Shown: positions 7,961-22,479 of the stretch, piece by piece
How positions within the stretch are numbered: the stretch's first letter is position 1
Layout of the letters: every line of letters begins with the position of its first letter
Assembly (NCBI GenBank): GCA_030054095.1
Contig: JASGCO010000020.1
Span: 1 to 64,000, forward strand
Length of the DNA stretch: 64,000 bases
DNA from: Sediminibacterium sp.
GTDB taxonomy: Bacteria; Bacteroidota; Bacteroidia; B-17B0; Aurantibacillaceae
Reading direction: 5' to 3'
The notes under the pieces: generated by a model
Databases searched by the model: none
What the model was told of the DNA's origin: nothing
Seen by the model: only the letters and a program-made list of their open reading frames with translations
Program-made: the position numbers and the translations under genes

Positions 7961-8332
7961 ATGAAGATCAAATACGTGTTTGCAACGCTTATACTTATAA
8001 GTATAATCGGCTGCAAGAAAAAAATCAGCAATATAGATTATACTGCCAACTACAGTTGTAATGCAGCCACCCCCGGCTACGACAAAGACATTGCACCATT
8101 ACTGAACAATAGCTGCGCGTTTAATGGCTGCCATAATCAAACCTCTCATAAAGCCTTTGTCACCCTGTCAGATTTCGAAAATGCCAGATCGCAATTTCTT
8201 AATAATAAAAAAGTACTCATCTCTGTTCATCACGACCCGGGCGCTTCACCCATGCCTAAAGGGAGTAAACGACTGACAGAAGAGCAAATCAGGCAATTAG
8301 TCTGCTGGACAAAAAACAATTGTCCACGTTAG
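7961..8332 (+). CDS. cytochrome-c-like lipoprotein with a CX4CH motif
   Basis: A 123-residue lipoprotein: hydrophobic leader, lipobox ending at Cys18 (SIIGC) and a run of lysines. The mature part contains CAFNGCH, a CX4CH site instead of the usual CXXCH haem-attachment motif, plus a conserved-looking SPMPKGSKRLTEEQI segment and a C-terminal CWTKNNC pair. The spacing to a distal Met (PMPKG) and the LTEEQIRQL helix resemble cytochrome c-like folds annotated in Bacteroidota. It could bind haem atypically or a metal ion. It lies 89 bases after the small exported protein and 41 bases before the efflux pump gene, in the same direction, so it is probably part of the metal efflux operon. Confidence 0.65.
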   Translation: MKIKYVFATLILISIIGCKKKISNIDYTANYSCNAATPGYDKDIAPLLNNSCAFNGCHNQTSHKAFVTLSDFENARSQFLNNKKVLISVHHDPGASPMPKGSKRLTEEQIRQLVCWTKNNCPR

Positions 8333-8373
8333 AATTTAAAATACAAAAAACTAATTCAGATACTATTTACTAT

Positions 8374-11300
8374 ATGTTAAACTCAATTATAGACTTCTCA
8401 ATAAAAAATAAACTCATCATTGGCTTGTTTGTTTTTTTCCTTGTAGCTGTAGGAGCCTACCAGATCACCATACTCCCGATTGACGCAGTTCCCGATATTA
8501 CCAACAATCAGGTTCAGGTCATTACAAGCGCGCCATCTTATGGTGCTCCCGATATAGAACGCCTGGTTACTTTTCCGGTAGAACAAAACTGCAGTAACAT
8601 CTCCGGCAAAAAAGAAATTCGAAGCTTTTCCCGATTTGGACTATCGGTTGTTACCATTGTATTTAATGATGAGGTAGATATTTACTGGGCCAGGCAACAG
8701 GTAGCCGAACGCCTTCAACAAATCCGGAGCGAAATCCCCTCCGATATTAGCCCCCCTTATCTTGGCCCTATTTCTACTGGTTTAGGAGAAATTTACCAGT
8801 ATGTTGTGAAAGCGAAAAAAGGGTATGAAAAAAAATACGATGCCACCAGTCTTCGCACTATCCAGGACTGGATTGTACGACGCCAGCTTATGGGAGTAAA
8901 AGGCGTGGCAGAAATCAGCAGTTTTGGAGGAAAGCTGAAACAATATGAAATAGCCGTTGACCCCAATAAACTTAACGCCTATGGCATTAACATCAACGCT
9001 GTTTTTAACGCCCTTGAAACAAACAATGAAAATACCGGAGGTGCTTACATCGAAAAAGGCGCTTCTCTGCTTTACATCCGCAGCGAAGGGCTTTTAAAAA
9101 GTGAAGAAGACATAAAAAACATAGCTATCGCGCAAGGAAAAGGGACTGTTCCCTTGTTTATAAGAGACATAGCGGAAGTTCGTATCGGACATGCTATACG
9201 TTACGGCGCACTTTGTTACAATGATGAGGGCGAAGTAGCCGGTGCCGTTGTTATGATGTTGAAAGGCGCTAACAGTAGTGAGGTGATTAAAAATGTGAAA
9301 GCGCGAATAGAACAAATCCGGAAAACCCTGCCAGAAGGCGTAGAAATTGAAGCCTTTCTGGATCGCACAAAAATGGTGAATAATGCCATTGGTACTGTGG
9401 AAAAAAATCTTCTGGAGGGAGCGCTAATTGTCGTACTGGTATTGGTTCTTTTCCTCGGCAACCTGAGGGCCGGATTACTGGTAGCTTCTGTTATTCCGCT
9501 TTCTATGTTATTTGCGATCTGTATGATGAACCTGTTTGGTGTCAGTGGTAACCTCATGAGCCTCGGAGCACTTGATTTCGGTTTGATTGTTGACGGCGCG
9601 GTCATTATTGTTGAATCTGTAATGCACTACCTCGCTCACACCAGAAAGTTCAAACAAATCACTACACTCAGTAGCAGTCACATGGATGAGACAGTGGGGC
9701 ACTCTGCCAAAAAGATGATGAACAGTGCCGTATTCGGGCAGATTATCATCCTTATCGTTTACCTTCCCATCTTTTCACTTCAAGGCATAGAGGGAAAGAT
9801 GTTTAAACCCATGGCACAAACCGTTGCCTTCGCCTTAGTGGGGGCATTTCTATTATCCCTCACCTACATTCCGATGATGAGCGCTGTGGTCTTAAATTAT
9901 AAATCCAAATCAAACAACAATTTCTCCGACCGCATGATGGCCCAAGTTGAAAAGTGGTTCAGTTTTAAACTAATCCGTATCCTCCGCTATCCTAAAGTTA
10001 TACTGGGCAGTATCAGTCTTTTGTTTATTGCTTCTGTTATTACTATAACTCGCCTAGGCGGTGAATTTATTCCGGCATTGGAAGAAGGTGATTTTGCAGT
10101 AGATACAAGAGTTTTAACCGGCAGTAACCTGAATACAAGCATTCAATTCACACAAAAAGCGGCTCATGCCCTTAAAACCCAATTTCCGGAAGTAGAAAAA
10201 GTAGTCACTAAAATAGGTAGTGGCGAGGTTCCAACAGATCCTATGCCCATTGAAGCGAGTGATATGATGGTGATTCTGAAAGACAAATCCGAATGGACCT
10301 CTGCCAAAACCTTTCCTGAAATGGAAGAAAAAATGAGTAAGGCGCTGGAAGACATACCTGGTATCACGGCCGGTTTTATGTTTCCCGTTCAGATGCGTTT
10401 CAATGAATTGATGACCGGAGCCCGACAGGATGTAGTTTGCAAAATATTTGGGGAAAACCTGGATACACTTTCCACATACGCGGAGCAACTTGGAAAGATT
10501 GCAGGGAACATAAAAGGTGCTGAAAACATTTATGTAGAACCGGTTAATGGAATGCCTCAGGTTGTTATAGATTATAACCGATCGTTACTGGCACGCCATC
10601 ATTTATCGGTAGCGGAAGTTAATAAAGTTATTAATACCGCATTTGCCGGGCAAAGTTCGGGACTGCTTTTTGAAGATGAAAAACGATTTGATGTTGTAGT
10701 ACGCCTTGATACTAATTCCAGAAAAAACATAAACGATATCAAAAACCTGCTCATCCCTTCTGTTGATGGTATGCAAATACCCCTGCAAAATATAGCAAAC
10801 ATCACTATAAAAAATGGCGTTAATCAGATTCAACGTGAAGATGCCAAAAGAAGAATTGTTGTTGGATTTAACGTGGTTGGAAGAGATGTGGAAAGCATCG
10901 TGAATGAATTAAAACAAAAAACAGAAACACAAATCAAATTCCCCATCGGATATTACGTTACTTATGGGGGTGCTTTTCAAAATCTGGAAGAAGCCAAAAA
11001 CCGGCTGATGATAGCTGTGCCAGTATCCTTGCTGTTGATTTTTTTACTATTGTATTTTGCTTTTAAAAATCTTAAACAAGGTTTATTGATTTATACAGCT
11101 ATTCCTTTATCAGCTATAGGTGGCATTTTCTTCCTGGCCTTGCGCCAGATGCCATTCAGCATTAGCGCCGGTGTTGGATTCATTGCCTTATTCGGGGTCG
11201 CCGTTCTCAACGGCATTGTTCTTATCACCGAATTCAACCGTCTCCGTAACGAAGGTTGCGCTTCTATTGTACGAATTGTTATGAATGGTACACGGCTGCG

Positions 11301-12729
11301 CTTACGTCCGGTTCTTATGACTGCCTTTGTTGCCTCTTTAGGATTTTTACCTATGGCATTAAGCAATGGTGCTGGAGCAGAAGTACAACGGCCACTGGCC
11401 ACGGTGGTTATTGGCGGGCTGCTTATTGCCACTTTACTGACACTATTTGTATTGCCTCTACTGTATATGCTTGCTGAACGAAAAACCCTAAAAGAACGCA
11501 TACTATCTGGCAAATCAACTGTATTACTCATTTTCCTGCTATTTACTGGAATCATAAACTCACAAACTAAACTGGATTTACAGAGCGCCATTGATACCGC
11601 ACTGAAAAATAACCTTGTAGTTAAACAGGAGCAATTAAAATCGGCCTATAGTCAATCACTCATCAAAACAGCCGCTGATATTCCTAAAGCGACTATCAAC
11701 AGTGAGTTCGGGCAATACAACAGCAGTTATACCGACAACCGTTTTTCATTTACACAAAACATAGCTTTTCCCGTGGTCTATAAACGGCAAAAAGAATTGC
11801 TCACTTCTGAATACAATCAATCACAATGGTTAGTGAATTTAAAAACAACAGAACTCCGGAAAGAAGTAACAAAAACGTTTCTGTCTTACCAGTTACTAAA
11901 AAAACGTGAACAAATTCTGATTGTATCTGACTCGCTTTACCGGGATTTCTCTGCCATGGCTGAACTCCGGTTAAAAACCGGTGAATCAAATATACTTGAA
12001 AAGGTTACGGCCGAACAGCAGCAGACCGACATTCGTTTACAACTCAATGACCTCCGGCAGGAGCTCAAAATGGTAATGCTTCGTTTTCAGTTCTTACTGA
12101 ACAGCAAAACACCATTTCTGCCACGGGATCCCGAATCCGGTTCTATACTCTTGCTTTCTCCCGACACAATACACCTACAAACCAATCCCTTGTTAGAAGT
12201 GTATAAAACGCAGTCAGAGATTGAAAAAAACAGGATACGGCTTGAACGTGCCAAACTAGGTCCCGATTTAAGTTTTGGAGTAAGTAATACCACCATACGG
12301 GGCATGGGAGCTGATAACATAACTTATACCAGCAAAGACCGTTTTACCTCATTGCAACTTGGCGTAGCGCTTCCATTATTTCCCAAAGCACAGCGGGCAA
12401 GAATTCAGGGCAGTAGAACGATGATGCAGTTATGGAACAATGAAACTGAACTACTTAAAACCAAACAAAAACTAGAGATCAAACAACTCTTTTCCAGATA
12501 CGAGGCCCTTCGTGAAAGACTGAATTCTTACGAATCGAAAGGGCTAAACAATGCCCGTACCATACGTGAAACAGCGAACCGACAGTTTCGTAGTGGCGAA
12601 ATCAACTATCTGGACTATGTTGTATTACTTAACCAGGCGGTAAGCATCGAATCCCATTATATTGATACTCTGCAATTGCTGACCGACCTGGTTATACAAA
12701 TAAATTATTTCACTTACCCAACTAATTAA
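8374..12729 (+). CDS. heavy-metal RND efflux pump CzcA fused to a TolC-like domain
   Basis: A 1451-residue fusion. Residues 1-1040 are a heavy-metal RND (CusA/CzcA) proton antiporter with 12 TM helices and two large periplasmic loops. The TM4 proton-relay acidic residues are D401, D407 and E414, aligning with D402/D408/E415 of CzcA. The porter segment QMRFNELMTGAR is CzcA-like rather than CusA-like, so Co/Zn/Cd is favoured over Cu/Ag. Residues 1065-1451 are an outer-membrane efflux protein (TolC/CzcC family) joined through a hydrophobic stretch (about 1048-1064) that looks like a signal peptide ending NSQ. This architecture is known in Bacteroidota. ATG 8374 gives the standard MLNSIIDFSIKNK start. 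The adaptor gene follows after 4 bases. Confidence 0.93.
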   Translation: MLNSIIDFSIKNKLIIGLFVFFLVAVGAYQITILPIDAVPDITNNQVQVITSAPSYGAPDIERLVTFPVEQNCSNISGKKEIRSFSRFGLSVVTIVFNDEVDIYWARQQVAERLQQIRSEIPSDISPPYLGPISTGLGEIYQYVVKAKKGYEKKYDATSLRTIQDWIVRRQLMGVKGVAEISSFGGKLKQYEIAVDPNKLNAYGININAVFNALETNNENTGGAYIEKGASLLYIRSEGLLKSEEDIKNIAIAQGKGTVPLFIRDIAEVRIGHAIRYGALCYNDEGEVAGAVVMMLKGANSSEVIKNVKARIEQIRKTLPEGVEIEAFLDRTKMVNNAIGTVEKNLLEGALIVVLVLVLFLGNLRAGLLVASVIPLSMLFAICMMNLFGVSGNLMSLGALDFGLIVDGAVIIVESVMHYLAHTRKFKQITTLSSSHMDETVGHSAKKMMNSAVFGQIIILIVYLPIFSLQGIEGKMFKPMAQTVAFALVGAFLLSLTYIPMMSAVVLNYKSKSNNNFSDRMMAQVEKWFSFKLIRILRYPKVILGSISLLFIASVITITRLGGEFIPALEEGDFAVDTRVLTGSNLNTSIQFTQKAAHALKTQFPEVEKVVTKIGSGEVPTDPMPIEASDMMVILKDKSEWTSAKTFPEMEEKMSKALEDIPGITAGFMFPVQMRFNELMTGARQDVVCKIFGENLDTLSTYAEQLGKIAGNIKGAENIYVEPVNGMPQVVIDYNRSLLARHHLSVAEVNKVINTAFAGQSSGLLFEDEKRFDVVVRLDTNSRKNINDIKNLLIPSVDGMQIPLQNIANITIKNGVNQIQREDAKRRIVVGFNVVGRDVESIVNELKQKTETQIKFPIGYYVTYGGAFQNLEEAKNRLMIAVPVSLLLIFLLLYFAFKNLKQGLLIYTAIPLSAIGGIFFLALRQMPFSISAGVGFIALFGVAVLNGIVLITEFNRLRNEGCASIVRIVMNGTRLRLRPVLMTAFVASLGFLPMALSNGAGAEVQRPLATVVIGGLLIATLLTLFVLPLLYMLAERKTLKERILSGKSTVLLIFLLFTGIINSQTKLDLQSAIDTALKNNLVVKQEQLKSAYSQSLIKTAADIPKATINSEFGQYNSSYTDNRFSFTQNIAFPVVYKRQKELLTSEYNQSQWLVNLKTTELRKEVTKTFLSYQLLKKREQILIVSDSLYRDFSAMAELRLKTGESNILEKVTAEQQQTDIRLQLNDLRQELKMVMLRFQFLLNSKTPFLPRDPESGSILLLSPDTIHLQTNPLLEVYKTQSEIEKNRIRLERAKLGPDLSFGVSNTTIRGMGADNITYTSKDRFTSLQLGVALPLFPKAQRARIQGSRTMMQLWNNETELLKTKQKLEIKQLFSRYEALRERLNSYESKGLNNARTIRETANRQFRSGEINYLDYVVLLNQAVSIESHYIDTLQLLTDLVIQINYFTYPTN

Positions 12730-14357: not shown

Positions 14358-16463
14358 ATGAAAATAGTAGTACTACTTAAAAAATTGCTTTTTATAGCCA
14401 GCATTTGTATTTGTTGTTCGCTTAATTTAAACGCGTTTAGTCCCCCCATACCGATTACCTTGCTCGATGTAAGTGCCCGAAATTCTGAAACAGATGACGC
14501 AGAAGTTTGCTCTGCCCGGCACGTATTGAAAGTATGTGGAACGCCTTTTTCAGAAACCACGTCATTTCTCACCGCTATTCAATCAAAAATAATTGTGGTT
14601 TCCAGTAAAATGGAGCCATTCACATTCAGTAGCGCGGAAAAAGACAGCCTTGTCTCGTTTGTCAGAAAAGGAGGTATTCTTATTTGTCCTAATGTACGAG
14701 ATCCGTTTATGCATACACTTTTTGGTTTGTCGGGAGGTACTAATGCCAATAATCTCTATAGTATTACGTTCAACACCTTCCTGAACGATCCGGTTTTCAG
14801 ATGGCTTGACGACTCACTTGAAAAAACCATTAGCCTTGGCAGCAGCACCTTTACGTCGGTTATTAACAGCCGATACTATACTCCCACAACTGCCCTCTCT
14901 CTAGCCAAGTACAATAACACCAAAGATGCCATTACCTGTAATACCTTTTCAGTAGGTTACGCGTATGCCATTGGTGTTTCCTTTAAAAATATTATTCTCC
15001 TGAACCAACAAAACAGAGATTTTAATGCCAACAGATATTACAGTAATGATTTTGAACCAACCTCCGACGCGTTTATACTTTTTTTAAAAGGCATTATTCT
15101 AAAACACCTTCCTGTTATTCCTTACCTGCACACCAGTCTGTTCAATAGTAAAGCGTCTGTTCTTATTACCCATGATGTTGACGCCACTTCCGCATTCGAC
15201 ACTATGTCGCACTACAGTTTATACGAGCAATCCATTGGCGTCAAGGCATCGTATTACATTACAACACATTATATAAACGATGGCGCACTCAGTGATTTTT
15301 ATAATGTGTTTACCATTCCAAAAGTAAACCAGTTACTTACCAACGGACATATTTTGGGTAGTCATTCCGTTGGACATTTTATTGATTTTGCGGACGAGTC
15401 TGTATTCCCTTTAGGTACACCCGGCAATACCCCTTCTAATTACCTGCCCTACAACCATGGAAATTCGTCTCCTACTTTAAACGGAACTGTTTTTGGAGAA
15501 ACCGAAGTGTCCCGGGATCTGCTCAATACCAATTTTGGCATACAAATTAAAACATTCCGGCCGGGATACCTTGCCTTTAATAACAAACTCATTAACGCGT
15601 TGGAGTTGTTGAATTACAAATTCAGTTCTTCAGTTAGTGCCAACGATGTTCTTACCAACTTTCCATATCAATGTAAAAAAGACAATACGTCGTACGGATC
15701 CCTAACTAAAATATGGGAAATTCCTATGACCATATCCGATGCCGCCGCTTCTGATCCTATTACTCCCGCTAACTACCCCCAAAAAGTACTTAAATGGCTT
15801 TCCGTTGTACAGAAAAATAAAAACAATAATGCCCCCACCACCCTTCTCGTTCATCCTAACCGGTTATTTAAATTGGCGGCTCAGCGTGATTTCATCAGCG
15901 GGCTATCTTCAGATATAATGGTAACCAATCTTGAAACGTACGGCGAATTCTGGCAACAAAGAGATAGTCTTAATTTTTCGTTTACCCTTCGTAACGACAG
16001 CCTCACCATCATTATTCCCAACCAACAATTACCATTGCCTCCTGCCATCAGCTTCATCGTTAATAAAGGACAACAACTTTCCCATATCAGCCTGAAAAGC
16101 GAAGGTGGCCTTAACATTCCTGTCATGCAGGGTAATTGGGAGCAAAACGATAAAATTCTTTACTTTCAAAATGCTCCTGTTGTAGGCTTAAACGAATGGA
16201 TCTATTCGCCCAACAGATCGCTGCTGGTATATCCAAATCCCTGTACAGATAAAAGTGTTGTTTCTACAGGATCAAACATCTATCAGAAAATTAACTGCGA
16301 ATTATATACTCTTGGTGGTCAACTTATTGAGCAAATCTGCGCGGAATCAACCGATCACGTAATCATTGAAAAACGGAATTATCAGGGGCTCTATTGTGTA
16401 AAACTGTATGGTGACGGGATTTACCTTGGCACCACTAAACTACTTTTTAAAGATCGTTATTAA
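14358..16463 (+). CDS. T9SS-sorted polysaccharide deacetylase with GATase-like N-domain
   Basis: A 701-residue exported protein opening the exopolysaccharide operon. A signal peptide covers residues 1-27. Residues 30-255 form a domain with a VRKGGILICPN segment like class I glutamine-amidotransferase/ThuA-like folds, without an obvious catalytic Cys. Residues 265-530 are a NodB/CE4-type deacetylase: motif 1 THDVD (H272, D273, D275), motif 2 HSVGH (H336, H340), motif 3 RPGYL (R401). Residues 610-701 are a type IX sorting domain beginning at LLVYPNP. It is likely to deacetylate amino-sugar residues of a secreted polymer at the cell surface, as PgaB, PelA and IcaB do in other systems. Its 3' end overlaps the next gene by 56 bases. 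The N-terminal domain role is unknown. Confidence 0.8.
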   Translation: MKIVVLLKKLLFIASICICCSLNLNAFSPPIPITLLDVSARNSETDDAEVCSARHVLKVCGTPFSETTSFLTAIQSKIIVVSSKMEPFTFSSAEKDSLVSFVRKGGILICPNVRDPFMHTLFGLSGGTNANNLYSITFNTFLNDPVFRWLDDSLEKTISLGSSTFTSVINSRYYTPTTALSLAKYNNTKDAITCNTFSVGYAYAIGVSFKNIILLNQQNRDFNANRYYSNDFEPTSDAFILFLKGIILKHLPVIPYLHTSLFNSKASVLITHDVDATSAFDTMSHYSLYEQSIGVKASYYITTHYINDGALSDFYNVFTIPKVNQLLTNGHILGSHSVGHFIDFADESVFPLGTPGNTPSNYLPYNHGNSSPTLNGTVFGETEVSRDLLNTNFGIQIKTFRPGYLAFNNKLINALELLNYKFSSSVSANDVLTNFPYQCKKDNTSYGSLTKIWEIPMTISDAAASDPITPANYPQKVLKWLSVVQKNKNNNAPTTLLVHPNRLFKLAAQRDFISGLSSDIMVTNLETYGEFWQQRDSLNFSFTLRNDSLTIIIPNQQLPLPPAISFIVNKGQQLSHISLKSEGGLNIPVMQGNWEQNDKILYFQNAPVVGLNEWIYSPNRSLLVYPNPCTDKSVVSTGSNIYQKINCELYTLGGQLIEQICAESTDHVIIEKRNYQGLYCVKLYGDGIYLGTTKLLFKDRY

Positions 16464-18615
16464 ACAAATTACTTACATATTCACTTTTGTCTTTTTTAGC
16501 GCTTCTTTGATGGCGCAAAATACAGACCGGTTAGACACCCTTGTTTCTTCCTATATTGAACGCCTGACGCAACTATGGAACGAAAATAAAAATCATAATT
16601 TTTCCGGATGTATTACAGACCCGTACGCGGAAACTTCAGACAGACAATTTCCAGGACAATACAAACAGTCCGTTCTATCATCTGATAACGGGAAACAGTT
16701 TTTACTACTAAAACGAAATCAACTACGCCAAAGCATTTTAAAAAAAGACTACGGATTTAGCTTAAACGGTGGGTATCAGGAAAATTTAAGCGCCCCTTTC
16801 GTATCTCCTGACGAAGCGTTGGTTTTCAGGCGAAAATTCAGTATTGGCGTGGACTGGGATCTTTTAAAGGGTGGCTTACTCGATAATAAGAACGCCATAA
16901 AAAAATTACAACAGGAACGCATTCAACTGGACGCGGCTCGTCAACACAAGCATATAAGTCAATCTACTTTAGCCCACTACAGTTTCATTATACAAAATTT
17001 TAACCGGCTTAAACTTTCAATTATACGGTTCAGAATTAAAATGATGCAACAACAAAACGACATCGCCCGTCAGTTATGGGTTTTAAAGCAAATTACCGGC
17101 GACGCGTTTCTTACATCAAACCGACATTTAACCGATAGCCGCTCACAGTATTATCTTTTCGACACCTACAACAAAGACTTTTCGCTGCTTCGGAATGACT
17201 CCATAAACACAATTGTTCCCTTTTTAGCTGATATAGACTATGGCCGTTTACTAAGAGCAACGGACAGCATTACAGAATTAAACCGCCAGGGCGACGTAAC
17301 GACTCAGGCCCTACCTCAGTACAAATACCACTATTACGAAGACATCAGCCTAAAAGCATACACACGTTACAATTATTACGATGTATTTAATCCAGGAAAT
17401 CAACCACGTAATTTTATCTCGCTTGGCCTTAACTTTTCTGCCCCCCTGCGCGGAGGTTTAAAAGAACGTAGTGAACTGGAGGCCATTAATAACCAGTTAA
17501 ACCACACCTCTACCGAAGAAATAAATACCATAAAAGCACATAATCAGTATTACCTGTTAAACTTACTTTACGAATACAGAACCAAACTAAAGAACTATCT
17601 GGTACTCCTTGAAAAACGGAAAGAACAGGAAGAGCGCATCAGAATTGAATCTGTTAAGGAAAGACTGGGAGATTTAGAATTTAATCCAAATACTGCCATT
17701 TACATTCTTGACGATTACTGGAGTAATACCGTTGAATTACTGGAAATTCATCAGCAAATGTTCAGAATTTTACTCAATATACAGGAACAGGTACCAGCTA
17801 TCGAATTATCCCATTTTATGACACCCCTTTCCTATACCCAAACCTCAGCTCAGGTTCCTGAGCAGGGGGAACGCTATCTTTACATCTGGAGCAAAACCTT
17901 CGAAAAACACACTACGTCCTTTATCTATGACTACATTCACCTTAACCAATTTACCCATCTGTTAGTATCCTATAAAAATGACAAAGACTATCTTAAAACA
18001 CTAAACTCCTTCGCCACCACCCTGCATAAACAGACGACAGTTCCGGTTCATTTAATGCTTGGTCAAAATAAATTACTATATGGTGGCGTAAAAGAACTAC
18101 TAGACAGTTTACAATCCGGGGTAAATCTTAAAATCATAAAAGGCCTTCATTTGGATATTGAGCCACACACACAATCAGGTTTTAAAGACAATAAAGAAAA
18201 GTACTTTCAACTCTACTTGCAGTTAGTAAATACCGTTAGCGCCTTCTGCAATGAAAACAATTTATCCTTGTCCGTTTCCATTCCTCTACATTATCCCGAA
18301 GAGGTCATTCAACCCGTTTTTAAACTCTGCCAGCGCGTGATGTTGATGGCTTATGAAAACGTGGATCCGGACTTCATTTCTAAAAAAACAAAAGAAGAAA
18401 CAAGTATTTCTTCTGAAAAAACCGTTCTTGCCCTAAGAGCTAAAGACTTTAGTTCCCGCGATCAGCAAGAAATAGCGTTTAAGAAAATTGGCATTAAAAA
18501 CAAAGCTTACCACGATTTGGAAACACTTCTGGTACTTGACCGGGAAAGTTCACATCTACCTGAGTCCTCTCCGGTCGACACTAAACAACAAAAGCCTTCG
18601 GAAAACAAGAAATGA
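16408..18615 (+). CDS. TolC-like outer-membrane protein fused to a GH18-like barrel
   Basis: A 735-residue protein. A signal peptide ends at SASLMAQ (about residue 37). Residues 45-470 resemble TolC-type channels: two long helical regions separated by amphipathic strands (GFSLNGGYQENL, ISLGLNFSAPLRGG). Residues 490-715 look like a TIM-barrel hydrolase with GH18-type signatures: GLHLDIEPH with D583 and E585 in a DxE arrangement, SVSIPLHY, and MAYE at 647-650. The start is the ATG 16408 inside the preceding gene; no other in-frame start precedes the signal core. It ends with an ATGA overlap with the HlyD-like gene. It probably forms the export channel and trims or holds the polymer. A channel-hydrolase fusion like this is unfamiliar to me. 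Confidence 0.75.
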   Translation: MVTGFTLAPLNYFLKIVIKQITYIFTFVFFSASLMAQNTDRLDTLVSSYIERLTQLWNENKNHNFSGCITDPYAETSDRQFPGQYKQSVLSSDNGKQFLLLKRNQLRQSILKKDYGFSLNGGYQENLSAPFVSPDEALVFRRKFSIGVDWDLLKGGLLDNKNAIKKLQQERIQLDAARQHKHISQSTLAHYSFIIQNFNRLKLSIIRFRIKMMQQQNDIARQLWVLKQITGDAFLTSNRHLTDSRSQYYLFDTYNKDFSLLRNDSINTIVPFLADIDYGRLLRATDSITELNRQGDVTTQALPQYKYHYYEDISLKAYTRYNYYDVFNPGNQPRNFISLGLNFSAPLRGGLKERSELEAINNQLNHTSTEEINTIKAHNQYYLLNLLYEYRTKLKNYLVLLEKRKEQEERIRIESVKERLGDLEFNPNTAIYILDDYWSNTVELLEIHQQMFRILLNIQEQVPAIELSHFMTPLSYTQTSAQVPEQGERYLYIWSKTFEKHTTSFIYDYIHLNQFTHLLVSYKNDKDYLKTLNSFATTLHKQTTVPVHLMLGQNKLLYGGVKELLDSLQSGVNLKIIKGLHLDIEPHTQSGFKDNKEKYFQLYLQLVNTVSAFCNENNLSLSVSIPLHYPEEVIQPVFKLCQRVMLMAYENVDPDFISKKTKEETSISSEKTVLALRAKDFSSRDQQEIAFKKIGIKNKAYHDLETLLVLDRESSHLPESSPVDTKQQKPSENKK

Positions 18616-19739
18616 AAAGTATAAACTTCCAAAGAAATAAATCCCTGATCAGGATCATCAACGAAAAAAAAATCAGGGTTAAGCGCAACTGGGACAGGAT
18701 GCTTTACATTACACTATTGTGCTCATTCGTACTATTTCTGATTTACTACGCGGGCAAAAAACTGCTTTATGTACACGCCAACGGTCAGGTAGTAATTGAA
18801 AGTTCACGCATCCGGCTAACCAACGACGCGCGCATTATTGATTTTTATGTTCAGGAAGGCGATAGCGTAAAAAGAAATGACACACTCTTTTCCTACGCGG
18901 TAAATATAGGCCGAGAGCATGGAGAGGGGCTTACCTACGGCATAAACGGAGAAAGCAGTGGCGAATCGAAAGACCTTTGGCACCTTAAGGAAACCTACAA
19001 TCTAAAAAAATCCATTGCTATCAATAAAACACGAATCCTGAAAAACGAACAACTAATCAAAACATACAATCAGGACATAAAACGGTTAAGCAATGAAGTC
19101 ATTCTGGATGTTCTTCCTAAAAACAGACTGGAACTTCTTCAAAATGACATCATCAAATTAAGCATGGAAAACGAACAGCTTAATGAAGAAAATAAAACAT
19201 TTCTTGAGTTAATCAATACCATTGAACCGCTCCCCGCAAAAAGCACTTATAAATCCAGAATAAAACACAATGTAAAAGACCATCGCCCTTCTTCTGTACC
19301 TATAACAATTTCATCTACCCAAAAACTCACCTTTACCGATGAGGTACTCTCAGATGAAAAATACTTCAGATCTCCCATGGAAGGGGTTATTACGCGCATA
19401 TACATTCACGCTTTGGAAACAGCTCTCAAATCGGAGGAAATTCTCAGTATTCACCGTGGGCATCCGGCATATATTAAAACTTTTTTCGACCAAAAGGATT
19501 TGAAACACTTTAAAATCGGAGATGTTTTTGAACTCAAATTTCCAGATGGTACTGTATCGCAAGGTATATTAAAACGGTTCTATATTGCCACTTATCAAAT
19601 TCCCGAAGAGTTTCAACAAAAGTACGAACCTACTAACCGAACCATAGCGGGTGATATATTTCCCCTCACTGAAGAGGACCTGATGAAGTGGAAGATTTTT
19701 AACAAGATGAGTGTAAACGTAACCAAATTAATATTCTGA
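18612..19739 (+). CDS. HlyD-family membrane-fusion protein
   Basis: A 375-residue inner-membrane protein with one N-terminal TM helix (about residues 29-48) after a basic cytoplasmic segment, then a periplasmic adaptor: first lipoyl half (ARIIDFYVQEGDSVKRNDTLF, about 75-95), a coiled-coil hairpin (about 125-195), second lipoyl half (FRSPMEGVITRIYI, about 250) and a beta-barrel. It would bridge the GT2 synthase or inner membrane to the TolC-like channel. Its start codon overlaps the stop of the previous gene (ATGA), and the next gene begins immediately after its stop, which indicates translational coupling. Pel and alginate systems use other periplasmic scaffolds, so an HlyD adaptor here is notable. 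Confidence 0.82.
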   Translation: MKSINFQRNKSLIRIINEKKIRVKRNWDRMLYITLLCSFVLFLIYYAGKKLLYVHANGQVVIESSRIRLTNDARIIDFYVQEGDSVKRNDTLFSYAVNIGREHGEGLTYGINGESSGESKDLWHLKETYNLKKSIAINKTRILKNEQLIKTYNQDIKRLSNEVILDVLPKNRLELLQNDIIKLSMENEQLNEENKTFLELINTIEPLPAKSTYKSRIKHNVKDHRPSSVPITISSTQKLTFTDEVLSDEKYFRSPMEGVITRIYIHALETALKSEEILSIHRGHPAYIKTFFDQKDLKHFKIGDVFELKFPDGTVSQGILKRFYIATYQIPEEFQQKYEPTNRTIAGDIFPLTEEDLMKWKIFNKMSVNVTKLIF

Positions 19740-21176
19740 ATGAAGGCGACAGCAACATTAAAATTCAAAGAAAACATCCTGAAATGGGACAATGCTGCTT
19801 TCTATCTTATTGATAAGGATAGCTATGCCAGACCAGAGCAACTTATGGACTACGATGCCGTAATTATAGATGCCTCTGATCAGGAATATACCAGGCTACT
19901 GTTAAGAAGATTTAGGGCACATCATAACAGTTCACTCTACCTAAAACCCATTTATCTGGTTAATTATAAAGAACAAACCGACGTATTTATTAATGAGCTG
20001 ATTGATGGTATCATTTACTTTCCTGAACAAATTACAGAGAAAATAAACGAAATATCAGAATTAAAACAGAGAATTACCCATTTAGATACCGACCCGGGGC
20101 ACACCTTTGAATCACAACTAATAAAAAAAGTACTGGCCTTTCTTTATACACGCGAGAAAAAATCCATTAAACCACTTCCCTATGTATATTCCTCTATTGG
20201 CTATACCTATCCTGTTCTATCGGTCAATTTTGAACCATTTGAAGAATTCAGGGTACTAGATATTCTATCCTGGGCAGAAAACGAAAATATCATCTGGCCC
20301 GACTTTGTTGACCGTGTTTACTTCTGTAATAATTGTAAAAATGGTCATTTGGTTTACCGCGAGATCTGCCCATCTTGCGACTCGGCCAATATTAAATCGC
20401 AGGATCTGATCCATCATTTTCCATGCGGGTATATAGGTCCGGTTTCCGATTTCAGGAATACCATTGACAGTACGATGAACTGTCCCAAATGTTCTAAAAA
20501 TCTCCGCCACATTGGAGTAGATTATGATAAACCCTCTATCATAAACCACTGTCAGAATTGCAACGAAGTTTTTCAGGATTATATTGTAAAAGCAAAATGC
20601 ATCCATTGCAAACACGATACTGATGTTCAGTACTTACTGGCCAAAGACATTAACGCCTATAAACTGACTAAAAAGGGCCGCCATGCCGCCACCTCTGGTT
20701 TTATAGGAGAGCGGAATGAAAAAGAAGATGAAATATTCGGTGCGGTTAATCAGAAAACGTTCCAAACCATGTTGTACTACGAAACGGAAAGAGTAAAACA
20801 CAACATATCCGCCAACATTCAACTGTGCGGCCTTCAACTGGAGAACATTTTCGACCTTACCAGAAAGTTCGGAAAATCGAAAGAAAAGGCGTTTCTTACC
20901 GAATTGGTTCAAATTATAAGAGAGCAGATAAAAACAATGGATTTCATCAATATCACTAATCCCTCTATGATTTTAATCTGTATGGCAGATAGTTCACCTG
21001 AAACTGCCAATGAATTGATGCAACGGATTTCTGATAAAATAAAAGACTTGATTGCCAACAATTTTAATGGGTTTTCAATTGTTACCGAATTTAAAACAGA
21101 ATCATTAAAGAAAGACATTTCCTTTGAAAAGCAAATACACAACTTAAGCACCTTCCTCGTTCAATCTAATGACTGA
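19740..21176 (+). CDS. TackOD1 zinc-ribbon protein with degenerate GGDEF domain
   Basis: A 478-residue cytoplasmic protein. Residues 1-110 resemble a degenerate receiver domain. Residues 190-300 match my recollection of the TackOD1 metal-binding output domain: C196-NN-C199, CPSC, IHHFPCG, CPKC, LRHIGVDYDKP, CQNC, then CIHC. Residues 330-475 have the length and helix-strand pattern of a diguanylate-cyclase domain but no GGDEF signature, so catalysis is unlikely; it may bind c-di-GMP or another ligand. It sits between the HlyD-like gene (directly abutting) and the GT2 gene (8-base overlap), so a regulatory role over polymer synthesis is the simplest reading. Domain identity is fairly confident; function is inferred. 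Confidence 0.75.
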   Translation: MKATATLKFKENILKWDNAAFYLIDKDSYARPEQLMDYDAVIIDASDQEYTRLLLRRFRAHHNSSLYLKPIYLVNYKEQTDVFINELIDGIIYFPEQITEKINEISELKQRITHLDTDPGHTFESQLIKKVLAFLYTREKKSIKPLPYVYSSIGYTYPVLSVNFEPFEEFRVLDILSWAENENIIWPDFVDRVYFCNNCKNGHLVYREICPSCDSANIKSQDLIHHFPCGYIGPVSDFRNTIDSTMNCPKCSKNLRHIGVDYDKPSIINHCQNCNEVFQDYIVKAKCIHCKHDTDVQYLLAKDINAYKLTKKGRHAATSGFIGERNEKEDEIFGAVNQKTFQTMLYYETERVKHNISANIQLCGLQLENIFDLTRKFGKSKEKAFLTELVQIIREQIKTMDFINITNPSMILICMADSSPETANELMQRISDKIKDLIANNFNGFSIVTEFKTESLKKDISFEKQIHNLSTFLVQSND

Positions 21177-22479
21177 ATTCGTTGATAATTTTTTCAACTA
21201 TATTGCTTCAGTAGGACTGAGTAAGTTGGTACGTGTATTCTGGTTTTTTGTTTTTTTCGAATTCATCCGCTTTTTTCTGTTTGAACTGATTGTTCTTGTT
21301 ATCTGGAAACTTGGAGAAAAAAAACGAAAATTAAAATACAACAAAGGCAGGGAAAGGCTTTTTATAGAACGTCCGCTTATATCGGTAATTGTTCCCGGAA
21401 AAAACGAAGGAAAACACATTTACAAGCTTACAAAATCACTTAAAGAACAAACCTACAAACATTTTGAACTGATTGTGATAGATGACGGTTCGGATGATGA
21501 TACTGAAACCATTTGCAAAGGATTAAAAAAAGCAGGTGTTATTGATCTCTTTCTCAGAAACGATGTAAGAGGTGGAAAAGCTTCGGCGGCTAACCTCGGG
21601 TACCGGTTCGCGAAAGGTAAAATAATTGTGCATCTCGATGCGGATTGCAGTTACGATTCTGACGCGATCGAAAAAATTATTATTCCATTTTATACCGATC
21701 GCAAAATAGGCGCTGTAGGAGGTAATGTAATGGTTCGGAATTACAAAGCCAGTTTATGTACAACACTGCAAGCCATTGAATACGCTAATTCTATTTCGAT
21801 AGGGCGCGTTACATCCAGTTCGCTGGGCATTTACCGGGTAGTATCCGGCGCGTTTGGCGCGTTCCGAAAAGATGCTATTGACCGCATTGGGGGATGGGAT
21901 ATTGGCCCTGGACTGGATGGCGACATTACTGTAAAACTCAGAAAAATTGGTTATAAAATTGTTTTTGAACCAGATGCTGTATGCCAGACCAGCACTCCCG
22001 ACACCTTCAAAAAACTTGTCAAGCAACGTTTACGCTGGGATAAATCCATCATTCGTTTCCGTTTGCGCAAACACCGCGATGTATTTTACCCAAATGCGCA
22101 ATTCACCTTCTCTAATTTTTTTGCTTCGCTCGAAAACATAACTTACAATCTGGTGCTCAATCTAAAATGGTGGGTGTATATTGCGGATATCTTTTTCAAT
22201 TTTTTCAATCAGCTCAAATTCATCTTCTCCTTTAATTTTATGCTTTACACGTTCACATCTTTTATTAAGTTCACCATTTTTTCGCTTTTCCGAAACCGAA
22301 AAAATGAATCCGTCACTTATTTTTTACTCTATATCCCCTGCATGTTTTTATATTTTGGCCTATTTCTACGGATTGTACGCACGATTGCGTACACACAAGA
22401 ATTTTTCTTTAAAAAGTCATACGAAGATCCATGGAACCCACAAAAATCCTCTCAACATGCTAAAGAACTGGGGTTATAA
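21169..22479 (+). CDS. processive GT2 glycosyltransferase (PgaC/BcsA-like)
   Basis: A 436-residue membrane glycosyltransferase. N-terminal TM helices (about residues 18-45), a cytosolic GT2 domain, and C-terminal TM helices (about 330-415). Catalytic landmarks: D105-D106 in VIDDGS, the DxD D157-A-D159 in HLDAD, acidic D250/D252 in GLDGDIT in the place of the usual ED base motif, and Q286-RLRW (QxxRW). These features define processive synthases such as cellulose, hyaluronan and poly-GlcNAc synthases. It overlaps the TackOD1 gene by 8 bases and ends the operon. The polymer cannot be deduced from the sequence; the deacetylase partner points to an N-acetylated sugar. It converges on pheT with an 18-base gap. 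Confidence 0.88.
   Translation: MTEFVDNFFNYIASVGLSKLVRVFWFFVFFEFIRFFLFELIVLVIWKLGEKKRKLKYNKGRERLFIERPLISVIVPGKNEGKHIYKLTKSLKEQTYKHFELIVIDDGSDDDTETICKGLKKAGVIDLFLRNDVRGGKASAANLGYRFAKGKIIVHLDADCSYDSDAIEKIIIPFYTDRKIGAVGGNVMVRNYKASLCTTLQAIEYANSISIGRVTSSSLGIYRVVSGAFGAFRKDAIDRIGGWDIGPGLDGDITVKLRKIGYKIVFEPDAVCQTSTPDTFKKLVKQRLRWDKSIIRFRLRKHRDVFYPNAQFTFSNFFASLENITYNLVLNLKWWVYIADIFFNFFNQLKFIFSFNFMLYTFTSFIKFTIFSLFRNRKNESVTYFLLYIPCMFLYFGLFLRIVRTIAYTQEFFFKKSYEDPWNPQKSSQHAKELGL

Follow-up and report, generated by a model that had tools for sequence, protein, structure and literature searches.

The TackOD1 domain was called obscure in function when it was named (PMC5847659), and two papers that mention TackOD1 or its arCOG by name make no connection to glycosyltransferases. 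A stretch of 64,000 nucleotides from Sediminibacterium sp. (hereafter, the window) raises the question of what such a domain could be doing in a gene located between those for a periplasmic adaptor and a polysaccharide synthase. This gene (positions 19740 to 21176, on the plus strand, as are its operon neighbors) has an ATG start and encodes a 478-aa protein; it begins directly past the ORF of an HlyD-type adaptor (18612 to 19739) and shares 8 bp (21169 to 21176) with the ORF of a GT2 synthase. The protein matches the Pfam profile of TackOD1, PF18551, with an E value of 1.7e-53 and a score of 181 bits (cut-off, 32 bits), and the match (residues 126 to 309; nucleotides 20115 to 20666) covers profile positions 8 to 188 of 188. 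It includes the motif GVDYDKP and all 11 Cys residues of the domain (Cys196, Cys199, Cys210, Cys213, Cys229, Cys248, Cys251, Cys271, Cys274, Cys287, and Cys290), which, with His226, make up five CxxC pairs and an HxxC motif and are invariant in 21 of 21 aligned proteins. Both the TackOD1 domain and the placement of its gene, overlap included, had been proposed in a first-pass annotation and are borne out. The family profile, searched against PDB sequences, found no relative. In the AlphaFold model of the full-length protein, the TackOD1 part has pLDDT values of 23 to 53, so no claim is made on its fold. Sub-threshold TackOD1 matches were rejected as family members: they are short cysteine-rich stretches, and the operon genes were absent in all three cases checked.

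The adjoining genes appear to form, together with that of the TackOD1 protein, a five-gene operon for polysaccharide synthesis and export. Its presumed first gene (14358 to 16463) encodes a secreted polysaccharide-deacetylase-like protein (PF01522, E value of 1.1e-5) with a T9SS sorting tail (TIGR04183, above the cut-off) and has orthologs at three other loci (L036, L037, and L046). It is followed by genes for a TolC-like outer-membrane protein, OEP (16408 to 18615; PF02321, E value of 2.1e-6), orthologs of which lie upstream of the HlyD gene at most loci; the HlyD/EmrA-type periplasmic adaptor (TIGR01843, E value of 2.2e-6, below the cut-off), which is conserved upstream of TackOD1; the TackOD1 protein; and a processive, PgaC/IcaA-like membrane GT2 polysaccharide synthase (21169 to 22479; PF00535). 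The GT2 matches TIGR03937 (PgaC) with an E value of 6.9e-55, its 186.7 bits being below the equivalog cut-off of 422.3 bits; it has no PilZ domain and retains intact DxD and QRLRW motifs, and the GT2 motifs are invariant across 34 paired GT2s. The co-occurrence of genes for a T9SS-tailed deacetylase-like protein, a TolC-like protein, an HlyD adaptor, and a PgaC-like GT2 suggests, from sequence, that the product is a secreted, possibly deacetylated amino-sugar polymer. The PgaABCD/HmsHFRS systems for PNAG are similar in that they combine a polysaccharide deacetylase with the synthase to which this GT2 is nearest (PgaC/IcaA); the window operon differs in its below-cut-off match to the PgaC model, in having TolC/HlyD-type export rather than a PgaA porin, and in having the TackOD1 protein where a PgaD-like partner would be. 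In one related locus (L021) and, judging by the sequence start, in three others (L023 to L025), a UDP-sugar dehydrogenase gene takes the place of the deacetylase gene; the polymer thus probably varies among relatives while TackOD1 persists, which suits a regulator. Two further features of this region deserve mention. At its C terminus, the TolC-like protein has an additional ∼250-aa domain (17845 to 18615) that has no PDB sequence match and contains a stretch, GLHLDIEPH, that recalls glycoside hydrolases, and a single ORF at 8320 to 12729 fuses an AcrB-type RND pump to a TolC-type OEP domain.

The link to GT2 genes, on which the first-pass annotation had staked its proposal, proved stronger than guessed. 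TackOD1 genes lie directly before a GT2 gene of the same subfamily at 45 of 45 Bacteroidota loci examined (12 related loci, 12 genes from a phylum-wide draw of 395 genomes, 20 from a class-level draw, and the window), with a gap of −8 to +10 bp in 22 of 24 relatives. In the 395-genome draw, the set of GT2 genes (protein search at E ≤ 1e-60) coincides with the set of TackOD1 genes, 13 genes in the same 12 genomes, although such co-occurrence counts are drawn from related genomes and hence are not statistically independent. In genome G203, each of the two TackOD1 genes has its own GT2; these two modules (L021 and L022, on one contig) belong to different subtypes and are separated by 15 kb, with one on each strand. 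Tree-distance correlation was discarded as evidence of contact, as the value for TackOD1-GT2 (r of 0.89) is not specific, that for TackOD1-HlyD being 0.97.

Outside Bacteroidota, all 12 proteobacterial plasmid loci examined (Roseibium, Palleronia, three from Phyllobacterium, Aminobacter, Methylocystis, two Rhodobacterales, Photobacterium, Plesiomonas, and Aeromonas) have the order TackOD1, GT2, HlyD-type adaptor; in Alisedimentitalea, a small ORF intervenes between the first two genes, and in Aeromonas, a TolC gene comes before the adaptor. The adaptor was tested against Pfam in Roseibium and otherwise recognized by annotation or position (by position alone in Palleronia and Methylocystis, where it is labeled “hypothetical,” and in Photobacterium, where it is unannotated); the Aeromonas GT2, which spans the record start, was identified from its motifs and from how closely it resembles its Photobacterium counterpart. 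In Alisedimentitalea (L107, 4695 to 5980), the TackOD1 gene is short (313 aa) and a separate 114-aa ORF lies between it and GT2; the C-terminal module may thus be a protein of its own in this case. Haloarchaeal plasmid loci present a different picture. Only one of six has a GT2 near TackOD1 (Halorussus, in the order TackOD1-DUF2334-GT2, DUF2334 being a deacetylase); in the other five (L069 and L103 to L106), the TackOD1 genes, of ∼320 aa, have no GT2 beside them and represent a different use of the domain. Thaumarchaeal pilus loci have likewise been reported to contain TackOD1 without an adjoining GT2 (PMC5847659, PMC4858521).

The TackOD1-GT2 partnership is real and widely conserved, and, since TackOD1 is placed directly before GT2 in every bacterial genome examined, its product is probably the dedicated regulator of the neighboring synthase. 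The strictness of the pairing, the translational coupling with GT2, and the conservation of the Cys core alone while other domains vary would also be expected of a zinc-dependent chaperone or assembly factor that serves GT2 folding or membrane insertion and is no switch at all; this explanation is unlikely, as canonical REC fusions and nearby phosphorelay genes (see below) point to signaling. A regulatory role of the TackOD1 protein therefore appears likely, which leaves the question of the signal.

One candidate is c-di-GMP. The first-pass annotation had described a GGDEF-like domain lacking the signature, and such a domain is indeed found at residues 334 to 475 (20739 to 21164). By sequence alone the assignment is weak, because the PF00990 match (residues 334 to 437; E value of 0.014) scores 15.6 bits, below the cut-off of 23.8; in the AlphaFold model, this region (pLDDT of about 65 to 93) matches GGDEF domains from the PDB in Foldseek with E values down to 4.3e-8 and TM scores of 0.7 to 0.8 on the target. 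Other TackOD1 proteins score 20.5 bits (G203) and 20.6 bits (G479) against PF00990, and the Aeromonas and Plesiomonas relatives are above the cut-off. The domain is catalytically dead: the signature position (20958 to 20972) reads NPSMI, and GG(D/E)EF is absent from this protein and from every aligned relative. The I-site RxxD position (20931 to 20942) reads KTMD, with Lys replacing Arg. A Photobacterium membrane protein (L064, 5527 to 7530) encoded just upstream of the TackOD1-GT2-HlyD genes looks, by eye, like a degenerate GGDEF-EAL protein.

A c-di-GMP receptor of the PelD/BcsE type that switches the synthase on would account for the GGDEF fold, for the RxxD I-site kept by three of three gammaproteobacterial relatives, and for the reported binding of c-di-GMP by MxdA of Shewanella (PMC7666153, PMC11395469), but it is highly improbable for the window protein. 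The I-site Arg is kept in just 2 of the 23 aligned Bacteroidota relatives that retain the domain, and GGDEF, EAL, and PilZ proteins are all absent from the window's genome (99.9% complete), in which control profiles matched; this search bears on GGDEF-made c-di-GMP and leaves room for a non-GGDEF source. Among 42 TackOD1 genomes (the window's and 41 others), a true GGDEF was found in one, G479 (3% contamination); in G203, G507, and G533, the only GGDEF matches are weak ones inside their own TackOD1 genes. Given this rarity, the loss of the I-site Arg, and a locus (L032) that lacks the GGDEF-like domain and retains the GT2 pairing, sensing of c-di-GMP cannot be what TackOD1 proteins do in general. 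It is unlikely in the window organism, and it may occur in the gammaproteobacterial members. The first-pass view of a synthase partner that replaces c-di-GMP receptors thus survives as to the dedicated, conserved GT2 partner and fails as to c-di-GMP sensing. Sensing of another nucleotide (c-di-AMP, ppGpp, or a UDP-sugar) by the GGDEF-like or TackOD1 domain could likewise gate the synthase: a diadenylate cyclase is encoded in the window's genome, and GGDEF-fold proteins have been crystallized with ppGpp (PleD entry 9g85). However, the GGDEF-like domain showed no conserved ligand motif, and locus L032 dispenses with that domain without losing its GT2, which makes such sensing quite unlikely.

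The remaining source of signals to be considered is the N terminus. Residues 13 to 116 (19776 to 20087), considered a degenerate receiver in the first-pass annotation, are the part of its domain scheme that fared worst: there is no Pfam receiver match, the hhalign probability against receivers is 5%, and CheY, PhoB, and CikA-type receivers are among the top Foldseek matches of the model at E values of only 0.02 to 0.3. In view of the hhalign value, the receiver assignment is no more than suggestive, and the first 116 residues probably have a receiver-like fold. The receiver active site is missing: Asp44 is present, at a position occupied by Asp, Glu, Gln, or Lys across the family, and the acidic pair and β5 Lys of receivers are absent. 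In six Bacteroidota relatives (L022, L026 to L028, L030, and L031), a canonical-looking REC domain replaces the receiver-like domain (confirmed by Pfam on L028 and by alignment in the others), and all six genes adjoin one for a separate protein of ∼110 aa that is homologous to the window N-terminal domain (five found by blastp and the sixth, in L027, by alignment). The REC domain fused to TackOD1 in L030 (9547 to 10995) is otherwise canonical and carries Asn at the position of the phospho-acceptor Asp. Roseibium and Palleronia encode REC-TackOD1 fusions with HK and Hpt genes nearby, and REC-TackOD1 fusions are known in archaea (PMC5847659). A cluster of PAS kinase, REC, REC-Hpt, and REC-LytTR genes precedes the TackOD1 operon in L021, and the gene order in L023 to L025 is similar (Pfam was run on L021, the others being compared by gene order); no kinase gene adjoins the window operon. 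Taken together, the REC fusions, the adjoining phosphorelay genes, the archaeal REC-TackOD1 proteins, and the binding of CheY3 to MxdA (see below) point to receiver-type input as the likeliest means by which TackOD1 proteins are controlled, and such input is probable in the window's lineage too.

The closest described system is, by analogy, probably MxdABCD of Shewanella oneidensis, which is needed for the biofilm matrix (PMC3691769, PMC7666153, PMC3409153) and whose MxdA protein (SO_4180) interacts with the receiver CheY3 (PMC7666153, PMC3409153). As described in the literature, on which the comparison is based, MxdA resembles the window protein in its degenerate GGDEF domain and in being encoded before a GT2. 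The order of a degenerate-GGDEF gene, GT2, and an efflux-type adaptor is also that of the Photobacterium and Plesiomonas TackOD1 loci; in contrast, Bacteroidota loci have OEP and HlyD genes upstream and, in some cases, a deacetylase gene. A search of plasmid records with gammaproteobacterial TackOD1 gave no Shewanella match. MxdA reportedly binds c-di-GMP and operates in a cell that has roughly 50 GGDEF proteins, whereas the window's genome has none. PelD of Pseudomonas aeruginosa is anchored in the membrane, contains a GAF domain, and uses its I-site to bind c-di-GMP, unlike the window protein, which is soluble and carries TackOD1. PelD too has a degenerate GGDEF domain, which regulates synthase-dependent polysaccharide export (PMC7439463). 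BcsE (REC*-GGDEF*), involved in Escherichia coli cellulose secretion, combines a degenerate receiver with a dead GGDEF domain in a cytosolic synthase partner, much as the window protein may, and its GGDEF* domain doubles as a surface on which the BcsQ protein docks (PMC7439463). Unlike the window protein, BcsE lacks a zinc ribbon; it uses an intact RxxD I-site, and its partner BcsA has a PilZ domain, whereas the window system has neither the I-site Arg nor PilZ. Archaeal response regulators with TackOD1 (PF18551) share the domain and its 11 Cys residues but occur in connection with type IV pilus loci, and the paper that describes them mentions no GT2 pairing (PMC5847659). The window protein is best read as a c-di-GMP-independent variant of the degenerate-GGDEF synthase regulators.

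The TackOD1 protein would then be a cytoplasmic partner of the GT2 exopolysaccharide synthase whose gene overlaps its own, serving as a regulatory or assembly subunit. Its zinc-ribbon core would dock on the cytosolic face of the synthase and, as we infer, activate rather than inhibit it. Signals would arrive through receiver-type protein interactions, supplied in relatives by a fused REC domain or by adjoining phosphorelay genes; in the window protein, the phosphorylation-incompetent N-terminal domain may bind another receiver, and the GGDEF-fold domain could be a non-catalytic docking or dimerization module with no part in c-di-GMP sensing in this lineage. As a whole, this receiver-driven, c-di-GMP-independent subunit is a reasonably probable solution, albeit well short of certain. 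A wider proposal is more tentative and somewhat more apt to fail than to hold: TackOD1 might mark a broad class of GT2 regulators in Bacteroidota, Proteobacteria, and at least one haloarchaeon, with docking by the zinc ribbon and phosphorelay receivers as drivers, c-di-GMP sensing in gammaproteobacteria being a secondary gain or retention and the dead GGDEF domain of Bacteroidota working without c-di-GMP.

The near-obligate pairing with processive GT2 synthases gives TackOD1 a testable role. It also provides a candidate switch of exopolysaccharide synthesis for Bacteroidota, in which c-di-GMP is mostly lacking among those examined. The same reading would offer a structural reason for the interaction of CheY3 with MxdA in Shewanella, as proteins of this kind carry a fused receiver elsewhere.
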